From: Polyangiaceae bacterium
GTDB taxonomy: Bacteria; Myxococcota_A; Polyangia; Polyangiales; Polyangiaceae
Direction: 5' to 3'
Length of the DNA: 64,000 nucleotides
Assembly: GCA_019637295.1 (NCBI GenBank)
Contig: JAHBVX010000001.1
Location: 99,501-163,500 of the forward strand
This document shows positions 6,031-52,638 of the stretch, in pieces. A program made the translations under genes and the position numbers. Under the pieces are notes generated by a model. The model saw only the letters and a program-made list of their open reading frames with translations. It was not told the DNA's origin and did no database searches. Within the stretch, counting starts at the first letter, position 1. Each line of letters opens with the position of its first letter.

Positions 6031-6750
6031 GTGGGGGCGCTCAGCGTCGGTGCGTTCGAGCTGCAGTCGGGCGCGCGTGTCGACGGACGCGCCGGGGTAA
6101 GCGGCGTGGGTGTGGGCGCCGCGCGTGGCGAGGGGGTGCTTCGCAAGGCGGGGGTTCCCACCGCGTGTGGCGAGTCCACCAGCGAAGCGCCGAGCGCCAA
6201 CTGTCGCTCGCCGATCCAGATGTTCCTGCGTCCGCTCGTCACCAGGCCGGCGTCGGCGACCCCGGAGGGAACCATTGCCGTGCGCTTCCAGCCGCCGGAC
6301 GCGGATCGACCCTGGGACCTGGTGGTCGGCGATCGCGTGCTGTGTCGCGCGCCCTGCGATGGCTTCAGCGATCCGAACCTGCCCTACGCATTTCGCACCG
6401 AGGGCGGCTTCCTGCGCTCGGACCCCGTCGAGGAGATCCCGGATCTCCGACCCTTCGAGGAGCAGGCGCCGCTCGAGGTGCGCACCACGCCGCGCGACAC
6501 GGGCAAGACGGCGCTCGGCATCGTCACCACCAGCGTGGCGGGCCTCGGCATCCTGACGGGCACGGTCCTGACGGCGACTGGATGCGGAGGCCGGTCGAGC
6601 GGGCGCTGCACCGCAGGGGTCGTGACGTTGCCGGTTGCCGCGACCGGGCTAGTGTTCGGGCTCGTGTGGATCGTCTCCGCGCGCTCGACCATCGAAGTCG
6701 CGCCGCTGCCGAGCCCCGCGTCCTTCGAGCCGGCCGCCCGCGGGCAGTGA
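6031..6750 (+). CDS. Hypothetical membrane protein, shortened paralog of the gene at 6849
   Basis: This reading frame of about 239 residues resembles the C-terminal two thirds of the product of the downstream gene (6849-8186). Both share ATHV..(G/A)L..GAFE, a Gly-rich stretch, a C...C pair, an LCR..C motif and two C-terminal hydrophobic segments. No signal peptide is present. The similarity to the paralog already begins upstream of the GTG at 6031, back to about 6001 in the same open frame, which is open from 5908. The gene therefore seems to have lost its 5' part, where a dispersed repeat now sits. It may be a degenerate copy, or it may start at a non-standard codon near 5911. The family is not recognised. 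Confidence 0.55.
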   Translation: MGALSVGAFELQSGARVDGRAGVSGVGVGAARGEGVLRKAGVPTACGESTSEAPSANCRSPIQMFLRPLVTRPASATPEGTIAVRFQPPDADRPWDLVVGDRVLCRAPCDGFSDPNLPYAFRTEGGFLRSDPVEEIPDLRPFEEQAPLEVRTTPRDTGKTALGIVTTSVAGLGILTGTVLTATGCGGRSSGRCTAGVVTLPVAATGLVFGLVWIVSARSTIEVAPLPSPASFEPAARGQ

Positions 6751-45648: not shown

Positions 45649-46443
45649 ATGGAAGCCAAGCCCGTGGCCATCGAGGCGGAGCGAGTCACCGCTGGCTACG
45701 GCGAGCCGGTCCTGCGTGAGGTCGGGCTGCGGGCGCGGGCGGGCGAGCTGCTGGCCGTCGTGGGCGCCAACGGTGCCGGCAAGTCCACCTTGTTGAAGGT
45801 GCTCGCGGGCACCCTGTTGCCCACGAACGGGGTCGTCCGAGTGTTCGGCGAGCCGCTGAGCGGGCTCGGTCGGCAGCAGATCGCTCGCTGCCTGGCGGTG
45901 GTGCCGCAGGAGACGGACGTTGCCTTCGGCTTCAGCGTGGGGGACGTCGTGATGATGGGTCGCGCGCCGCATCAGGGCGGGCTACTGCTGCCCTCGGCGG
46001 CCGATCGGGCGGCGGTCGCCCGAGCGCTCGAAGAGTGCGATCTCGCAGAGCTGAGCACCCGCTCGGTTGCGGAGCTCAGCGGCGGCGAGCGCCGGCGTGT
46101 GACGATCGCCCGTGCGCTGGCGCAGGAGCCCCGGATCTTGCTGTTGGACGAGCCGGCTGCGTACCTGGACATCGGCCACTCGCTGGCGCTGTTCGAGCTG
46201 ATTCGCCGTCAAACCCGCCAGCGCGACGTCGCCGTCGTGGCCGTCGTTCACGACTTGTCCCAAGTCGCCCGCTGGGCGGACACGGTGGTGCTCCTCAAGC
46301 AGGGCAGCCTCCACGCGGAAGGTCCCGTGGGCGACGTGATGCGGGCTGATCTGCTCGCAGAAGTGCTGGGCGCGGAGCTGGTCACGGGCGCCGACCCGGA
46401 CACTGGGCTCCGCTATTTCCTCCCGGTTTTTCGCCCAAAGTGA
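45649..46443 (+). CDS. ABC transporter ATP-binding protein (iron/heme uptake type)
   Basis: The product has 264 residues. It has a Walker A GANGAGKST, Q-loop VVPQETD, signature LSGGERRR, Walker B ILLLDEP and switch VVHD. It resembles the HmuV/FecE/BtuD group that energises siderophore, heme or cobalamin import. No permease or binding protein is encoded nearby, so the partners are elsewhere. It is followed by the complex I-like genes, with no sign of functional linkage. Confidence 0.9.
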   Translation: MEAKPVAIEAERVTAGYGEPVLREVGLRARAGELLAVVGANGAGKSTLLKVLAGTLLPTNGVVRVFGEPLSGLGRQQIARCLAVVPQETDVAFGFSVGDVVMMGRAPHQGGLLLPSAADRAAVARALEECDLAELSTRSVAELSGGERRRVTIARALAQEPRILLLDEPAAYLDIGHSLALFELIRRQTRQRDVAVVAVVHDLSQVARWADTVVLLKQGSLHAEGPVGDVMRADLLAEVLGAELVTGADPDTGLRYFLPVFRPK

Positions 46444-46470
46444 GCACCCTCGCTAAGCTGGGCAGTGCCC

Positions 46471-48309
46471 ATGCGGCGTCTCTCGGTGCTCCTCTTCACC
46501 CTGCTCGCTCTGGTCGGCTGCCGTCCGGACGAGACGGGACCCGGGCTCATCACGTTGGTGGAGCTGACGCCCAACCGCGTCGAGGTGGGCGATCGCGTGG
46601 AGCTCGCCGGGGTCGGATTCCCGGAGGGCAGGAGCGCGACCCTCACGTTTCGGGGCGACCTGTACCGACCCGGACGCGACCCGCTGCGACGTGTGGAGGT
46701 CGTCGTCAAGGCCACCGCGACGTCGTCGTCACGGCTCGGCTTCACGCTCGGCGACGCCACCGAGGAGGAGCTGTGTGGCCGCGGCGAGGACGCGGACCAC
46801 ACCACGTTCCGCGGTGATGTGGTCGCCGCCTTCGCGCCGCGTTCGCCGGGCGCACCGCCGGTCGCAGGGGTGCTACGCGACGTCGTGCTCGACTTCGCCG
46901 GGCCGAGCGTGTCTCCGACCGCGGTTGCCTCACGAGAGGCAGAGGGACGCAAGACCGCAGAGGTCCTCGGGCTCTCGTTCGAGCCGGACACCCTCACGGT
47001 GTCAGCGATCGAGCCACGCAGCCGGGCCGAGCGTGCCGCACTGCAAGTCGGCGATGCGTTGTACGACGTCGATGGCGTTCGCGTCGCGTCGATCGCGGAT
47101 CTGCGCGTCAGCGGGAAGAGCCCGGTAGCCAGCGTGTGGGTTCGGCGACCGAACGTGCGCGAACCGCGCGAACACTTCATCGACGTGCAGGGTGTGCGCC
47201 CCTCTGCGCCCCGGGATTTGCTCGGCGCGTTCGCCATCGTGGGCGCCTTCGTGTTGTTGCTCGGGGCGCTGTTCTTCCCTGGAGCTCGCCTGGTGGGCTT
47301 CGTGGAACGCGGGCTCGCGGAGCGACTACGCCAGCGTCGCGCCTCACGCGCGAGGCGCGCCGAGCCGACCTGGCGACCTGCCTCGGTGAGCCGCCCCGGC
47401 AGCGAGCCCATCGCCGTGCGGCTGCTGCCCGCCCTCGTGTTCCTGGCCGTCAGCGCAGCCGGCGCGGGGCTGGCCTTCGGACGTCCGCTCGTCGCCGCCG
47501 AGCTGGATCTCGCCCTCGCGCTCCTCGTGTACGTCACGGTCTCCCTGGTCGGTGGTCTGGTCGTCAGCGGCTGGAGCGAGTGTGGCCGCTGGGCGCTCGG
47601 ACGCGGTCTGCTCGGAGCGCTGTGCGCGCTCTGGGCGCGTCTGCCGCTCCTCGGCGGGGTAGCCGCCGCGGTGCAGGCCAGCGGGAGCGTGCGCTTCTCG
47701 GATCACGTTCGCGCGCAGGACGCGCTGCCCTGGGGATTCGCCGCGTTCTCGAGTCCCGTACTGTTCCTGGCGCTTCTGCTGGTGCTGGTCGTGTCGGTGC
47801 CGCGGGTCGAGCCCAGGCTCGCGACCTTCGACGCTGCAGCGGGGGAGCACGCACCGACCGAGGCGGGTCGAGGCATGCGGACGGCGGCCGTCGTCGACGC
47901 GGTCCACCTGATCATCGTGGGACAGTTGGTCGCCATTCTGCTCTTGGGTGGCTGGCGGTTGCCCTGGGCGGCAACCACGGGATGGACCATCGCCGGTGCG
48001 GTGCTGTTGCAGCTCAAGGCCTGGCTGGTGGTCGCGGTGATCCTCGGGCTGCGCGCTGGCCTGCCGCGCGTTTCCACCCGGCAGATCCCGGGCGTGTGGG
48101 GTCGCTCGGTGTTGCCGCTCACGGTCGGGCTGGTGGTCTTGGGCGCGGTGCACGGCGTGGGTGCGCGTCTCTTGTTCGCCGACTCGCCCGAGCCGCTGTT
48201 CGGGATGGTCCTGTTCGCTGCGACGCTCGGACTCGGAGCCTGGTTCCTCGTGCGGGTGAGCCGCCAAGCGCGCGGGCCGTCGCCAGCCCACGTCAGCCCC
48301 TGGCTCTGA
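46471..48309 (+). CDS. NuoH-like membrane protein with lipobox, IPT-like and PDZ domains
   Basis: The product has 612 residues. It begins with a lipoprotein signal (ALVGC, Cys17), then an IPT/TIG-like beta domain (about 27-145), a PDZ-like domain (about 165-235) and a NuoH-like membrane region (about 250-605, some eight helices). The NuoH resemblance is seen in VVSGWSECGRWALGR, VAILLLGGWRLPW and RAGLPRVSTRQIPGVW. Canonical NuoH glutamates and the quinone-pocket residues are largely replaced. It is the first of three consecutive genes of complex I character. No NuoA-G, I, J, K or N gene is present. The role is unknown; a Na+/H+ translocating or scaffold module is possible. Confidence 0.7.
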   Translation: MRRLSVLLFTLLALVGCRPDETGPGLITLVELTPNRVEVGDRVELAGVGFPEGRSATLTFRGDLYRPGRDPLRRVEVVVKATATSSSRLGFTLGDATEEELCGRGEDADHTTFRGDVVAAFAPRSPGAPPVAGVLRDVVLDFAGPSVSPTAVASREAEGRKTAEVLGLSFEPDTLTVSAIEPRSRAERAALQVGDALYDVDGVRVASIADLRVSGKSPVASVWVRRPNVREPREHFIDVQGVRPSAPRDLLGAFAIVGAFVLLLGALFFPGARLVGFVERGLAERLRQRRASRARRAEPTWRPASVSRPGSEPIAVRLLPALVFLAVSAAGAGLAFGRPLVAAELDLALALLVYVTVSLVGGLVVSGWSECGRWALGRGLLGALCALWARLPLLGGVAAAVQASGSVRFSDHVRAQDALPWGFAAFSSPVLFLALLLVLVVSVPRVEPRLATFDAAAGEHAPTEAGRGMRTAAVVDAVHLIIVGQLVAILLLGGWRLPWAATTGWTIAGAVLLQLKAWLVVAVILGLRAGLPRVSTRQIPGVWGRSVLPLTVGLVVLGAVHGVGARLLFADSPEPLFGMVLFAATLGLGAWFLVRVSRQARGPSPAHVSPWL

Positions 48310-48388
48310 ATTCGGCGGGCCGCCCGGCCGCGAGTCCTTGTGGCGCGCCGTCACGCCACGCTACGGTGCGCCGGGCCAGACCAGAGTG

Positions 48389-50602
48389 ATGTTCGACTAT
48401 TCAGGATCCCTCGACGGCGCGCAGCTGGACTGGACGCTCTGGTCGTGCGTGGCGTTGCCGTGGTTGGCGGCGTTGCTCGCGCTGCGCGCGGCCCTCGCGT
48501 CCGACGCGCAGGAGCGTGAGCGCCTGAGCAGATTGGCCCGACAGGCGTCTTGGGTCTGCGCGGCGCTCGTGGTGGGCGTCCTCGTTCTGGCTGCAGTACG
48601 CCTTGGCACCGCGGCTCCCGAGGTTCGTCGCGCCCTCGCGCCCGGTTGGACGGTGCTCAGCATAGGCACGCTCGACGTGAACACCGCGCTGGTGCTCACG
48701 GCGTTCTCGCTGCCGCTCGCGCTGGCGGCGGCCGTCGCGGGAGCGCTGTTCATCGTCCGAGCCCAGAGGGCGAGCCTGCGCCGGCTGGGCGGCGGCTCGG
48801 CCGCGCTCGGCTCGGTCATGCTCGGCGTGCTGGCGGACGACGTGGTCATCGCGGTGATGGGAGCCGCGCTCGCGCATTGCCTGCTCCTGGTGTGCCTTGC
48901 GCCGGAGCCGGGTGCGCGCTCGGCCCTGTCGTTCGGCCTCGGCCGGCTGGGCGAGCTCTGCCTGATCGCGGCGATGGCTCTCGGCGCGTGGGCCGTTGGT
49001 GGCAACTGGGTGGCGGGCGGCGGCTACGTCCCGGGCTTCTTGCCGCGCGTGGTCGGCGTCGAGCATGCGCTCGAGTCGGCCACCCCGGTGACGGCCGGGA
49101 GCGTACCGAGCGATCCAAACGGACGGCTCACCTTCACGGCGTTGCCAGGCGCGACCCTGCGGGTGGGCAGCGCGGTCTTGTGCGCGGTCGACGCAGATGG
49201 ACGCGACGGCGGCGTGGGCGTGGTGTCGCGCCCCTGCCGGCGCGTGGCGACCTCGCCGTTCACCGAGCTGCCAGCGCCCGCGGCGCTGCACGAGGTAGTC
49301 ATCGTGACCGGTCCGGGCACCTACGATCTGGCCGTGGAGAAGGTGCGCATCCGTCCGGGGGTGACGACGGATCTGGTGCTCCTGGGTCCCACCACCTCGC
49401 TGACGCGGCTCGCGGATCAAGCTCGGCTGCGGGACGCCTCCGGTGCATTCCCGGCGAAGTCGGCGCTGTCCGCTGCGCGCGTGCTCGGCGTCCCCGCGCC
49501 GACGGGCATCGCCGTTCTGCTGCTCATCGGGTTGCTCTCGAGCATGACCGCGCTGCTCGCGCGTCGGGAGTCCGCGCCGGACGATCCGGTCGACGACGAT
49601 CTTGCACTCGCGCTGGGTGGCGTGTTGGTGGCGGCCAAGATCGTCGCGGGGCTCGGCTTCGTGGTCGCGCTGAGCGGGCTCGGCACCGTGCTCGCGATCC
49701 TGGTCTCGGTGTTGGTCGCCGCGTGGCTAGCGCTGCGTGCCGCGTACGCTCGCAACACGGCGCGGGCCCTCGGCCTGCTCGCATCGGCGAGCGCGGCGAC
49801 GGGTGCGGCGTGCGTGTTCGCAGGCGCGCCCGTTCACGGCGTCGTCCACGTCGCGGTGGTGTGTCTCGGGTTGGTCGGGCTCGGCGCGGCCAGCGGTTGG
49901 CCGTCGCTGGAGAAGGCCGCGGGCTCGGCGTCGGGTTCGCCGGGACTCTGGCTCTCGGCGCAGGTGGCTGCTGGCGCGCCCCTCCCGCTGATCGGCGCTG
50001 GGGTGACCCTGGACGGCGGCGTGCGCGCGCTGTCGAGCCTGGACGCTGGCAGCGTGCCGCCGTGGCTGCTGGGCCTGCTGCTGTGCGTCGGCGCGTCGTT
50101 CACGTCGTTCGCGTGTTGGCGGATCGCGTTCGTCGCTGCTCGCGGCAAACGCGTGGAGACGCTCGAGGGCGCTGCCGGCTCGCTACCGCTCGCGCCGCCG
50201 GTCCTCGGCGCAGTCCTCGCGCTGCTCGCAGCCTCGGGTCCGCTGCTCGCGCCGCTGGAGACGATGCTGCGTGCGTGGTGGGTTCCCGCCGCGGAGATCG
50301 CGCCACCCTCGCAACCGCTCTTGGGAGACGTCGCTCTCGGCTTCGTCGTCCTCGGCTTTGCCGCCGCGGTCATCGGCTTCGTGTTCGCGCGCCGCCGCTA
50401 TGCGCGCGATGACTGGGCGACTGCCGAGTCGAGCCGAGTCTTTGGCGGCCGACTCTCCGGCGAGACGCCGGAGCTAACGCCCATCGTGTCGAAGTTCTTG
50501 TTCGCGGAGGTCAGCGTCGTGGCCGCGCCGCTCACGGCCAAAGAACCCGCTGAGCCGTCGGTCGAGCCCGCCCGCTCGAAGCGAAAGGGGAAGCGTCGAT
50601 GA
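48389..50602 (+). CDS. NuoL-like membrane protein with extracytoplasmic insertion
   Basis: The product has 737 residues and about 14 predicted helices. The first part has NuoL-type features (SIGTLDVNTALVLTAFSL, then SALSFGLGRLGELCLIAAMALG matching the NuoL NRVGDxGLLL region). A beta-rich insertion of about 140 residues (about 220-365) lies between helices and would face outside. Conserved NuoL lysines and the TM7 glutamate are not found. The C-terminus ends in Lys/Arg-rich residues. The ATG at 48389 is favoured over the TTG at 48338. The stop overlaps the next start (ATGA). The function is unknown. Confidence 0.7.
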   Translation: MFDYSGSLDGAQLDWTLWSCVALPWLAALLALRAALASDAQERERLSRLARQASWVCAALVVGVLVLAAVRLGTAAPEVRRALAPGWTVLSIGTLDVNTALVLTAFSLPLALAAAVAGALFIVRAQRASLRRLGGGSAALGSVMLGVLADDVVIAVMGAALAHCLLLVCLAPEPGARSALSFGLGRLGELCLIAAMALGAWAVGGNWVAGGGYVPGFLPRVVGVEHALESATPVTAGSVPSDPNGRLTFTALPGATLRVGSAVLCAVDADGRDGGVGVVSRPCRRVATSPFTELPAPAALHEVVIVTGPGTYDLAVEKVRIRPGVTTDLVLLGPTTSLTRLADQARLRDASGAFPAKSALSAARVLGVPAPTGIAVLLLIGLLSSMTALLARRESAPDDPVDDDLALALGGVLVAAKIVAGLGFVVALSGLGTVLAILVSVLVAAWLALRAAYARNTARALGLLASASAATGAACVFAGAPVHGVVHVAVVCLGLVGLGAASGWPSLEKAAGSASGSPGLWLSAQVAAGAPLPLIGAGVTLDGGVRALSSLDAGSVPPWLLGLLLCVGASFTSFACWRIAFVAARGKRVETLEGAAGSLPLAPPVLGAVLALLAASGPLLAPLETMLRAWWVPAAEIAPPSQPLLGDVALGFVVLGFAAAVIGFVFARRRYARDDWATAESSRVFGGRLSGETPELTPIVSKFLFAEVSVVAAPLTAKEPAEPSVEPARSKRKGKRR

Positions 50603-52638
50603 CCCGCGCGCTGCTGGGGGCGCTGCTCGCCGTCGTGTCGCTGCTCGTGTCGCTGCCCGCCAGCGCAGCGCCCCTCGCGCTACGCGCCGACAATGGCGCG
50701 CGGATGCTCGAGCTGACCGAGACCAGCGGTGACCTGGTCGGGCGGTTCACAATCGAGAACTCGACGAGCGACCGCGTCCAGATCACGGGTCTGTCGCTGC
50801 GTCGCGGCGCGGAGCAAGATGGGTTCGCTCCGCGCGACATGACGGTGCAGCTCGAAGAGGGCACCTCGGCCGCCACCCTCGAGCCGGGAACGAAGAGGGT
50901 CGGGGTCGTCCGCTGGACCAAGCCCCGCGGGATCGCCTTCGAACGCGGCTATGCGATGGTGCTCGTGCACACCGCCGACAGCGAGGCGCCCGTCGCGCTC
51001 GGCGTCCGCTACCGGTCGCTGGGTACCGGCGATCCGGCGTTGCCGTGGATCCCCGTCGGTCTGGTGCTCGTGCCGCTCCTCGGGGCGCTCGGCGTCTTGG
51101 GCGCGGCTCGTCGCCGCGATGGTGCGAAGCGCGCCGTCAGGACGGTCGTTGGCGCGAGCGCTGGCGTGTCGTTGCTGCTCGCGCTCTACGCGCTCCTGCG
51201 CTTCGATCCGGCGCTGACCCGGTTCGACGGCAGCGAGGGCTTCTTCGTGCTCTACCGCCGTCTGGTTGGCGGAGTCGAGCTCGGCTTTGGGCTCGACGGC
51301 CTCTCGCTGAGCTTCGCGCTGCTCTTGCCGCTGCTCGTCCTGGCCGCGGTGGGCAGCGGTCGCTTGGCGGAGGATCATCGCGAGTGGACCTCGCTGTCAC
51401 TCGCGCACGCGGGCTTGGCGTTGGTTGTGGTGAGTCTCGACGTGGTGAGTGCGAGCGTGGGTCTGGCCCTGGTCGGCGCGGTGATCGCGACCTCTGGCGC
51501 CTTCGCTGAGGCGCCAAAGTGGACGCGCTGGACGGCACCGGCGGGAGCGGCGCTCGTGGTGGCTGGCCTGTTGTTGCTTCCGCTTGGCGTCGCTGGCTTC
51601 ACGGTCGAAGGCGACGCGACCCGCTACCCCACGGCCATGCTGGAGCTCAGCCGGGTGCTGGCGGGTGACACGACGCTCCTCGGCGGCGTACACCGCGCGG
51701 TCGTCGTGTGGCCGCTGCTCGTGCTCGGAACCGGCGCCCTCTTGGGGCTGCCGCTGCTGGGCGCGTGGGCGCGTCCGCTCGCGAGCTCGCGCGCGGCGCT
51801 CGCGGTCGTGGTGGTTGGAGGGCTCGGTGCCGTGGGCGGCTACCTGCTGCTGCGGACGGGGGCGCTGGTCTTTCCGATGGCGCTCGCTTGGTCCACGCCT
51901 GCGCTGGCGGTGTTCGGGGCAGTGGCAGCCCTGGTCGCCGCGCTCGAGGCGTGTCGCTCCTCGCGCTGGTCCCAGGGCCTGGTCCCGCTCGCGTCGGTCA
52001 GCGGTGGCCTGGCGTTCGTCGCGATCGGTTCGCTCACGGCCATCGGCCTGCAGGCCGCGGTGGTCTTGCTCGTGGGTCGTGCGCTGGGTCTTGCCGGCGC
52101 GCTCGGCGTGCGCTCTGCCCTCGCCGAGCGGGTTGGACGGGAAGGGGTGGATCGGGTCTCGGGACTCGCGCGCGAGCACCCGCTCCTGGCCCTGGTGGCT
52201 GCCGTGGCTGCGGCGAGCTTGGCGGGTCTACCGGGTGGCGCGCTCTTCGTCGGCGTCGCTGAGACGGTGGTCGGCTCGCTTCCGAGCGCACCTGGCGCGA
52301 CGCTGATCACCCTGCTGGCGCTCGGTCTGGCGACCGCGGCGGCGGCGCGTGCCTGGCTGGCGCTCGGGCTCGGCAAGTTCCCGGAGGAGCTGCGGGGCTC
52401 GAGCCGGCTGGTGCCCTTCGCCGGCAAGCTCCCGCCTCTGCGGGGTGCCGAGAAGCTCGGGCTACTCGGCTTTGCCGCGCTCACCATCCTGCTCGGCGTC
52501 GTGCCCCGAGGGTGGCTGCTGCGCGTGGACGGCGCCGCCCTAGACCACGGCGGGCGGGTCAATCCTCCTGGGGCGCTCGAGGTCGTTCAGACGCCGGCCG
52601 AGCCGGTGAACCCAGAAGCGCCCCACGCGCGCGCCTGA
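50599..52638 (+). CDS. NuoM-like membrane protein with N-terminal beta domain
   Basis: The product has 679 residues. A Sec signal peptide (to about residue 25) is followed by an extracytoplasmic beta-sandwich-like domain (about 26-145) and then about 14 helices. NuoM-like segments are ELGFGLDGLSLSFALLLPL, LVPLASVSGGLAFVAIGS and GLAREHPLLALVAAVAAASLAGLPG. The conserved His and Lys that carry protons in NuoM are missing at the matching places (SVSHMGF becomes SVSGGLAF). It overlaps the NuoL-like gene by four bases. It completes a three-gene module. Confidence 0.7.
   Translation: MTRALLGALLAVVSLLVSLPASAAPLALRADNGARMLELTETSGDLVGRFTIENSTSDRVQITGLSLRRGAEQDGFAPRDMTVQLEEGTSAATLEPGTKRVGVVRWTKPRGIAFERGYAMVLVHTADSEAPVALGVRYRSLGTGDPALPWIPVGLVLVPLLGALGVLGAARRRDGAKRAVRTVVGASAGVSLLLALYALLRFDPALTRFDGSEGFFVLYRRLVGGVELGFGLDGLSLSFALLLPLLVLAAVGSGRLAEDHREWTSLSLAHAGLALVVVSLDVVSASVGLALVGAVIATSGAFAEAPKWTRWTAPAGAALVVAGLLLLPLGVAGFTVEGDATRYPTAMLELSRVLAGDTTLLGGVHRAVVVWPLLVLGTGALLGLPLLGAWARPLASSRAALAVVVVGGLGAVGGYLLLRTGALVFPMALAWSTPALAVFGAVAALVAALEACRSSRWSQGLVPLASVSGGLAFVAIGSLTAIGLQAAVVLLVGRALGLAGALGVRSALAERVGREGVDRVSGLAREHPLLALVAAVAAASLAGLPGGALFVGVAETVVGSLPSAPGATLITLLALGLATAAAARAWLALGLGKFPEELRGSSRLVPFAGKLPPLRGAEKLGLLGFAALTILLGVVPRGWLLRVDGAALDHGGRVNPPGALEVVQTPAEPVNPEAPHARA

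Follow-up and report, generated by a model that had tools for sequence, protein, structure and literature searches.

Three NuoH-, NuoL- and NuoM-like genes standing alone in a Polyangiaceae genome: a probable remnant of a second, periplasm-decorated complex I

Three adjacent genes in a Polyangiaceae bacterium (GenBank assembly GCA_019637295.1, contig JAHBVX010000001.1) encode proteins that resemble the membrane subunits NuoH, NuoL and NuoM of respiratory complex I, and they raise the question of what such proteins are and do apart from the rest of the enzyme. The genes lie at 46471-52638 of the window, by which we mean the whole stretch of 64,000 nucleotides analysed here (positions 99,501 to 163,500 of the contig). 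The original prediction had described three neighbouring genes of these types, the last two overlapping by four bases, and neither hydrophilic-arm genes nor NuoA, J, K or N genes nearby. Open reading frame (ORF) calling and translation confirmed three adjacent plus-strand ORFs (46465/46471-48309, 48338/48389-50602 and 50599-52638), and none of the other subunits was among the ORFs called in the window. Our answer, which we hold with moderate confidence, is that the trio (NuoH', NuoL' and NuoM' in the following) is a remnant of a periplasm-decorated, 11-subunit-like complex I that was retained when the redox arm disappeared, as a membrane scaffold that probably does not pump.

The three proteins are homologues of NuoH, NuoL and NuoM, the first and third assignment being supported by profiles and the second by predicted structure and orthologues. 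NuoH' (46471..48309, plus strand; the ORF opens with GTG at 46465 and the likely start is ATG 46471) matched the Pfam family NADHdh (PF00146) at 2.4e-16, with additional weak PDZ matches. Its AlphaFold model (predicted local distance difference test, pLDDT, 87.1; predicted template modelling score, pTM, 0.80) aligned with NuoH/ND1 chains at Z 16.5 over 220 residues. NuoM' (50599..52638, plus strand) matched Proton_antipo_M (7.3e-08) and the NCBIfam NuoM family TIGR01972 (2.1e-21). The profile searches that had been proposed at the outset thus recognised genes 1 and 3 but not gene 2, NuoL' (48389..50602, plus strand), to which neither Pfam nor NCBIfam assigned any family at E<=10. A profile of its own family, made with relatives among which there are clear NuoL orthologues, scored NuoL' at 1.2e-164, and its model (pLDDT 80.0, pTM 0.84) aligned with solved NuoL chains at Z 34.5 over 522 residues. 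All structure predictions were of single chains, and the structure-alignment rows spanned mainly the membrane domains. The NuoL' ORF opens with TTG at 48338, and its start is most likely the ATG at 48389, a conserved Met. The NuoL' stop and the NuoM' start share the four bases ATGA (50599..50602, plus strand), which may couple their translation.

Each of the three proteins also carries an added non-membrane domain, and these additions go beyond the original prediction. NuoH' is a predicted lipoprotein with a lipobox Cys (LVGC, 46519..46521; alignment column C19, invariant in 22 sequences), a beta-rich domain beside the lipid anchor (46552..46899), a PDZ domain (46966..47184; weak in the window at E 1e-4, E 1.7e-9 in the G136 orthologue) and the NuoH-like membrane domain (47215..48273), all on the plus strand. 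Only PDZ and NADHdh were found in its Pfam scan, with no trypsin-like domain. In NuoL' a beta-rich insert (49010..49393, plus strand) occupies the predicted interval between transmembrane helices (TM) 6 and 7; its position is clearest in the intact orthologue at locus L118, where the match to solved NuoL is split in two. NuoM' has a signal-peptide-like start, an added N-terminal domain (50680..51048, plus strand; family profile A5, with no Pfam match in two orthologous copies) and a NuoM-like membrane domain recognised by profiles. The domain names IPT/TIG (NuoH'), PEGA (NuoL') and Ig-like (NuoM') were tried without Pfam support and are kept as by-eye resemblances only. The lipobox, the signal sequence and the known topology of NuoH, NuoL and NuoM predict that the added domains are periplasmic.

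The folds of complex I membrane subunits are present in the trio, and the residues on which the pump depends are largely missing. Passages of PMC10212512 name Glu in TM5, Lys in TM7, Lys/His in TM8 and Lys/Glu in TM12 as key residues of NuoL and NuoM. In the window the NuoM-type protein keeps 0/4 of these, the NuoL-type protein 0/4 of those that can be aligned, and the NuoH-type protein 10/23 checked positions of the quinone site and E-channel, as the predicted replacement of ion-pathway residues had implied. In the NuoH-like membrane domain, LGGW and a membrane Lys/Arg are kept and most acidic residues of the quinone loop are lost. Furthermore, NuoL' is truncated and lacks a large part of the C-terminal coupling-helix region: 66 residues follow a conserved motif, versus 128-133 in six sequences from relatives with an additional NuoD (see below) in which this motif was found.

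Could the trio belong to a complex I elsewhere in the same genome? The assembly, with completeness given as 98.47%, encodes two ordinary complex I sets, the first in two parts at C23:143-150k and C23:390-399k, the second on contig C21, as well as an Mrp set on C8 and a locus at C1:725-729k that we take to be DabAB-like; the trio is additional to all of these. All but one of 12 PF00361 matches belong to other systems, the exception being NuoM' itself, and the NuoD and NuoK matches all fall in sets other than that of the trio. A NuoK or NuoN for the trio was accordingly not found (NuoA and NuoJ were without a profile search), and a second NuoD is absent, NuoD occurring in the two ordinary sets only (for NuoB, C and I no individual genome-wide search was made). 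That the trio completes a resident complex I was rejected, since each of these enzymes comes with a NuoH, L, M and N of its own. A role as alternative or accessory subunits of an ordinary complex I would suit the two resident sets and the matching folds, but it is very unlikely: besides these four subunits in both sets, the loss of key residues and the short NuoL' tail make a replacement hardly possible, and there is no genomic link between the trio and the ordinary sets.

The origin of the trio becomes apparent from relatives, which were obtained by a genome search after a related-locus scan of genome contigs gave none; for several of these searches, including those with NuoH', NuoD' and, across the phylum, profile A1, figures refer to the matches listed. 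An extra NuoD, here NuoD', occurs in 10/144 genomes of the order. Besides the query its hits show 69-83% identity and 625-742 bits, the next match reaches 294 bits, and the other matches listed are at most 46% identical to the query. We opened the NuoD' loci in six genomes, those with the highest NuoH' scores. Genes for A', B', C' and D' cluster at 5/6 of them, with only NuoD' called at the sixth (L141), and the opened NuoK' loci hold I'J'K' in 3/4 cases and J'K' in the fourth. At L118, I'J'K'L'M'N' stand together. Across the six genomes the clusters A'B'C'D', I'J'K' and L'M'N' and a solo PDZ-NuoH' gene are scattered over the genome, and the Fe-S cysteines are present in NuoB' (5/5 checked) and NuoI' (4/4 checked). 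An NADH module for this second complex I was not found in the six genomes opened. In two NuoD'-positive genomes (G133 and G069) NuoF occurs only once, and as it adjoins the ordinary set the second enzyme would be without its own; the other NuoD'-positive genomes have further, unassigned NuoF-type matches. With A'-D' and I'-N' clusters present and no own NuoF in G133 and G069, the source enzyme looks like an 11-subunit-like complex I with dispersed genes. Such a second complex I (L118-L123, L138-L147), with its genes at several sites in the genome and no NADH module detected, is unusual in itself. Missing subunits were thus found at other loci in relatives but not in the window genome. Orthologues of a gene that we presume from a sequence motif to be manC (50-60% identity) are neighbours of A'B'C'D' at 4/6 of the loci opened and occur near NuoH' at ten, pointing to a single ancestral gene cluster.

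In these relatives the membrane subunits are canonical, a further point beyond the original prediction. NuoH' scored 373-385 bits against PF00146 in 6/6 NuoD'-positive genomes, versus no more than 166 bits in the remaining 20, of which 14 had a NuoH' match. Residues were counted on ORFs recovered by profile from fetched loci (26 NuoM', 27/30 NuoL' at >200 bits, 79 NuoH'), with NuoD' presence scored independently of residue state; the NuoD'-positive genomes G143 and G084, whose NuoL' and NuoM' lie outside the fetched loci, are not in these counts, and a truncated NuoH' row (G200) has no letters at the checked positions. With NuoD', the key residues are kept throughout in NuoM' (32/32, 8 genomes) and NuoL' (40/40, 8 genomes), and all 23 NuoH' positions are kept in 10/10 rows, one Lys-for-Arg aside. 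Among 18 genomes in which NuoD' is missing, NuoM' retains the TM5 Glu in 1, the TM7 Lys in 0, the TM8 Lys in 1 and the TM12 Glu in 4. The corresponding 19 NuoL' rows have the TM5 Glu in 0/19, the TM7 Lys in 1/18, the TM8 His in 0/18 and the TM12 Lys in 0/15 with a letter there (Arg in 4). In 69 NuoD'-negative NuoH' rows the LGGW Gly (67), Trp (55), membrane Lys (60) and Arg (55) largely persist while the acidic residues of the quinone loop fade. As far as sequences can tell, residue loss tracks the absence of NuoD', so that redox arm and proton residues go together, and the trio derives from the second complex I.

How widely are these proteins kept? The NuoH' query matched 121/144 genomes of the order at E<=0.001, ordinary NuoH included. 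Profile A1, which covers the lipoprotein-PDZ part, gave long matches within the window's order and also in three further families of the class (f16, f20 and f27), with one weaker match in f13; in a phylum sample, those matches listed from outside the class begin at position 118 at the earliest, towards the PDZ part. Profile A5 found 34/240 class genomes, 33 of them in families f1 and f8 of the order and one, weak (3.6e-7), in f29. Linked trios occur in a number of relatives, other genomes carry NuoH' without NuoL' or NuoM' as neighbours, and many retain PDZ-NuoH' alone. The idea that a lone NuoH' has its L'M'N' partners elsewhere held for some genomes but not for all among the matches listed, and in this check the N-terminal NuoM' profile had no match in, for example, G038, G117, G110 and G119. 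One genome of family f20 (G218, 95% complete) has no PF00146 or PF00346 match, yet encodes a highly diverged relative of the lipoprotein-PDZ part. Several local arrangements recur. At L049:8840-11781, NuoH' is followed by a protein of ~570-600 aa (with a weak zinc-ribbon match in L049) and then by one of ~390 aa, which in L049 matches Trypsin_2 (1.3e-11) and shows no evident signal peptide; L050, L051 and L053 share this arrangement by length and order, making four genera in all. NuoL' and NuoM' are fused in one frame of ~1250-1280 aa in two separate lineages (L060:8941-12705 and L124, 7527-11363). In several genera (L055, L127, L129, L131, L135, L137), L'M' or H'L'M' adjoins or lies near a convergent operon, presumably of the atpG-atpA type.

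Such proteins are under purifying selection in relatives, judged by the ratio of nonsynonymous to synonymous substitution rates (dN/dS). The ratio was 0.08-0.33 for NuoH' in ten NuoD'-negative pairs and 0.09-0.30 in one NuoD'-positive and two mixed pairs from one genus; for NuoL' it was 0.16-0.53 in six pairs and for NuoM' 0.19-0.50 in three. Low identity between genera and the lost catalytic residues might suggest a decaying, functionless leftover. We regard this as improbable given the open frames, the low dN/dS in relatives, the invariant lipobox Cys, the conserved added domains and the wide retention in the class. In a tree of the lipoprotein-PDZ part (53/79 NuoH' rows, hand-picked from families f1 and f8), the 10 NuoD'-positive rows do not form one group. 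The tree has 5 changes of label, 3 of them forced by starred branches, and the NuoD'-negative g17 genomes are nested in a clade that holds NuoD'-positive ones. Losses of the redox arm therefore look repeated on this tree.

The breadth of NuoH' could also mean that its lipoprotein-PDZ part is an adaptor for periplasmic protein quality control or a protease, with the membrane parts as mere anchors. The lipid-anchored domain and PDZ are indeed the most widely kept parts, A1 also detects them in members of the class with a membrane domain only distantly similar to NuoH, and bacterial PDZ domains are tied to proteases and stress (abstract of PMC6411480). However, NuoL' and NuoM' would then be superfluous, yet they are constrained where retained, and no protease gene was noticed adjoining the window trio; we rate this explanation as somewhat unlikely.

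We favour a scaffold that descends from the second complex I. An ancestor within the order would have had this second, unusual enzyme, seemingly without an NADH module, and its NuoH would have borne the lipid anchor, beta-rich domain and PDZ, its NuoL the beta-rich insert and its NuoM the N-terminal domain. The window lineage would then have lost the electron-carrying subunits plus A, I, J, K and N, while NuoH', NuoL' and NuoM' survived and lost their quinone-binding and proton-carrying residues. H'L'M' would now be a non-pumping membrane scaffold presenting periplasmic domains, with the PDZ lipoprotein NuoH' as its putative core, since it is often retained alone. Tentatively, we extend this to a disarmed pump core that may have become a non-redox envelope platform more than once, with the PDZ module on its lipid anchor as the functional part, in some cases joined by L'M' and the outer domains of that pair. 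The antiporter-like subunits of complex I are ordered N-M-L. Passages of PMC10212512 place NuoA, J and K after NuoH, with the antiporter-like subunits beyond. As A, J, K and N thus separate NuoH from NuoM-NuoL in complex I, NuoH' and L'M' may be two units or form a new arrangement.

Several observations weigh against this proposal, and some of them favour a trio that still moves ions as an antiporter or channel by way of other residues, coupled to a periplasmic process sensed by PDZ and the other domains. Arg stands at the TM7 Lys site of NuoL' in 9/18 NuoD'-negative rows, and NuoL' helix charge is not lower in NuoD'-negative (4.8-9.4 per 100) than in NuoD'-positive sequences (5.7-7.5), the window having 9.2. 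The antiporter-like folds are kept in the models, as are, in NuoD'-negative rows, the NuoH' membrane Lys (60/69) and Arg (55/69). Against ion movement, the TM5 Glu, TM8 His/Lys and TM12 Lys/Glu are almost all gone from NuoL' and NuoM', NuoM' membrane charge drops from 5-6 to mostly 3-4 (range 1-6), and NuoH', which has no antiporter fold, lacks L'/M' neighbours in many genomes. Ion movement is thus unlikely in our view. The original prediction had offered a reduced module that either couples something else to ion flow or has become a structural membrane complex. For the window genome the reduced, stand-alone module stands; the coupling to ion flow is disfavoured, since hardly any of the NuoL/NuoM proton residues checked are left, the TM7 Arg counting the other way, and the structural complex is the better of the two options. 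Other points concern the data. Two genomes (G090 and G114) keep all 23 NuoH' residues with no NuoD' among the matches listed; being of the same genus as the NuoD'-positive G069, they may reflect an assembly gap or a recent loss, and they supply part of the 5 label changes in the tree. The ordinary reference NuoM_2 has Leu at the TM7 column, which is therefore imperfectly aligned or not universal. The dN/dS figures are those of relatives and not of the window genes (the NuoH' of the nearest relative has ~46% identity), and for the wider pairs saturation leaves only rough values. Homology, domain layout, loss together with NuoD', residue loss and low dN/dS in relatives are observations; scaffold role, complex formation and absence of ion transport are inferred, and the scaffold gives no reason for the constraint on the membrane part of a lone NuoH'.

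Our data suggest that pieces of a respiratory pump were reused for another job in the cell envelope. Complex I subunits are a textbook case of strict conservation, and the order offers a natural series from an intact, decorated complex I over H'L'M' trios to lone NuoH', along which redox arm and proton residues vanish together and the proteins persist. Such natural loss-of-pump variants could serve to test structural versus catalytic parts of the membrane arm. They also point to an unexplored envelope role for PDZ-lipoprotein NuoH in the order, and an envelope platform, if true, would add a new type to the machines derived from complex I.

Upstream of the trio, a plus-strand gene for an ABC-type ATPase (45649..46443) ends 21 bases before the NuoH' ORF. 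An ATPase gene is often upstream of NuoH' in relatives, in several of them at the same place, and no permease gene was noticed beside it. Elsewhere in the window ARAGORN placed a tRNA-Ala (tgc) at 6595-6690.

In the open-access literature, most subscription papers being outside this scope, we found no account of a PDZ-NuoH, an H'L'M' trio or a dispersed second complex I, in agreement with the initial statement that no described system with such a set was known. A genome survey of complex I (PMC12361115) describes incomplete and split sets in general terms, and its main text has no words beginning with Myxococc or Polyang. Among the known systems near to the trio, complex I (NuoA-N) and its 11-subunit forms without NuoEFG share the NuoH, NuoL and NuoM folds with it, and relatives hold A'-D', H' and I'-N' with canonical residues. 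The trio differs in that partners B, C, D, I, A, J, K and N were not found for the window set, in its lost pump and quinone-loop residues and in the non-membrane domain added to each of its proteins.

Mrp Na+/H+ antiporters likewise have NuoL/NuoM-like proteins without a redox arm. Their ion residues are intact and they have small partner subunits and no NuoH, whereas the trio includes a NuoH-like gene and no small antiporter subunits are among the ORFs called nearby. Group 4 membrane hydrogenases, formate hydrogenlyase and Ehr combine NuoH-like with NuoL/M-like membrane subunits but carry NuoB-, C-, D- and I-like redox subunits; no such redox gene is among the window ORFs called, and the NuoD-type matches lie elsewhere. 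In DabAB a NuoL-like protein works with a partner from outside complex I, but no DabA-like gene adjoins the trio, and the DabAB-like locus of this genome is elsewhere. Finally, NuoH' shares its PDZ domain with HtrA/DegP and other bacterial PDZ proteins and differs from HtrA/DegP in that it has no protease domain, its PDZ being fused instead with the anchor of a lipoprotein and the membrane domain of a NuoH.

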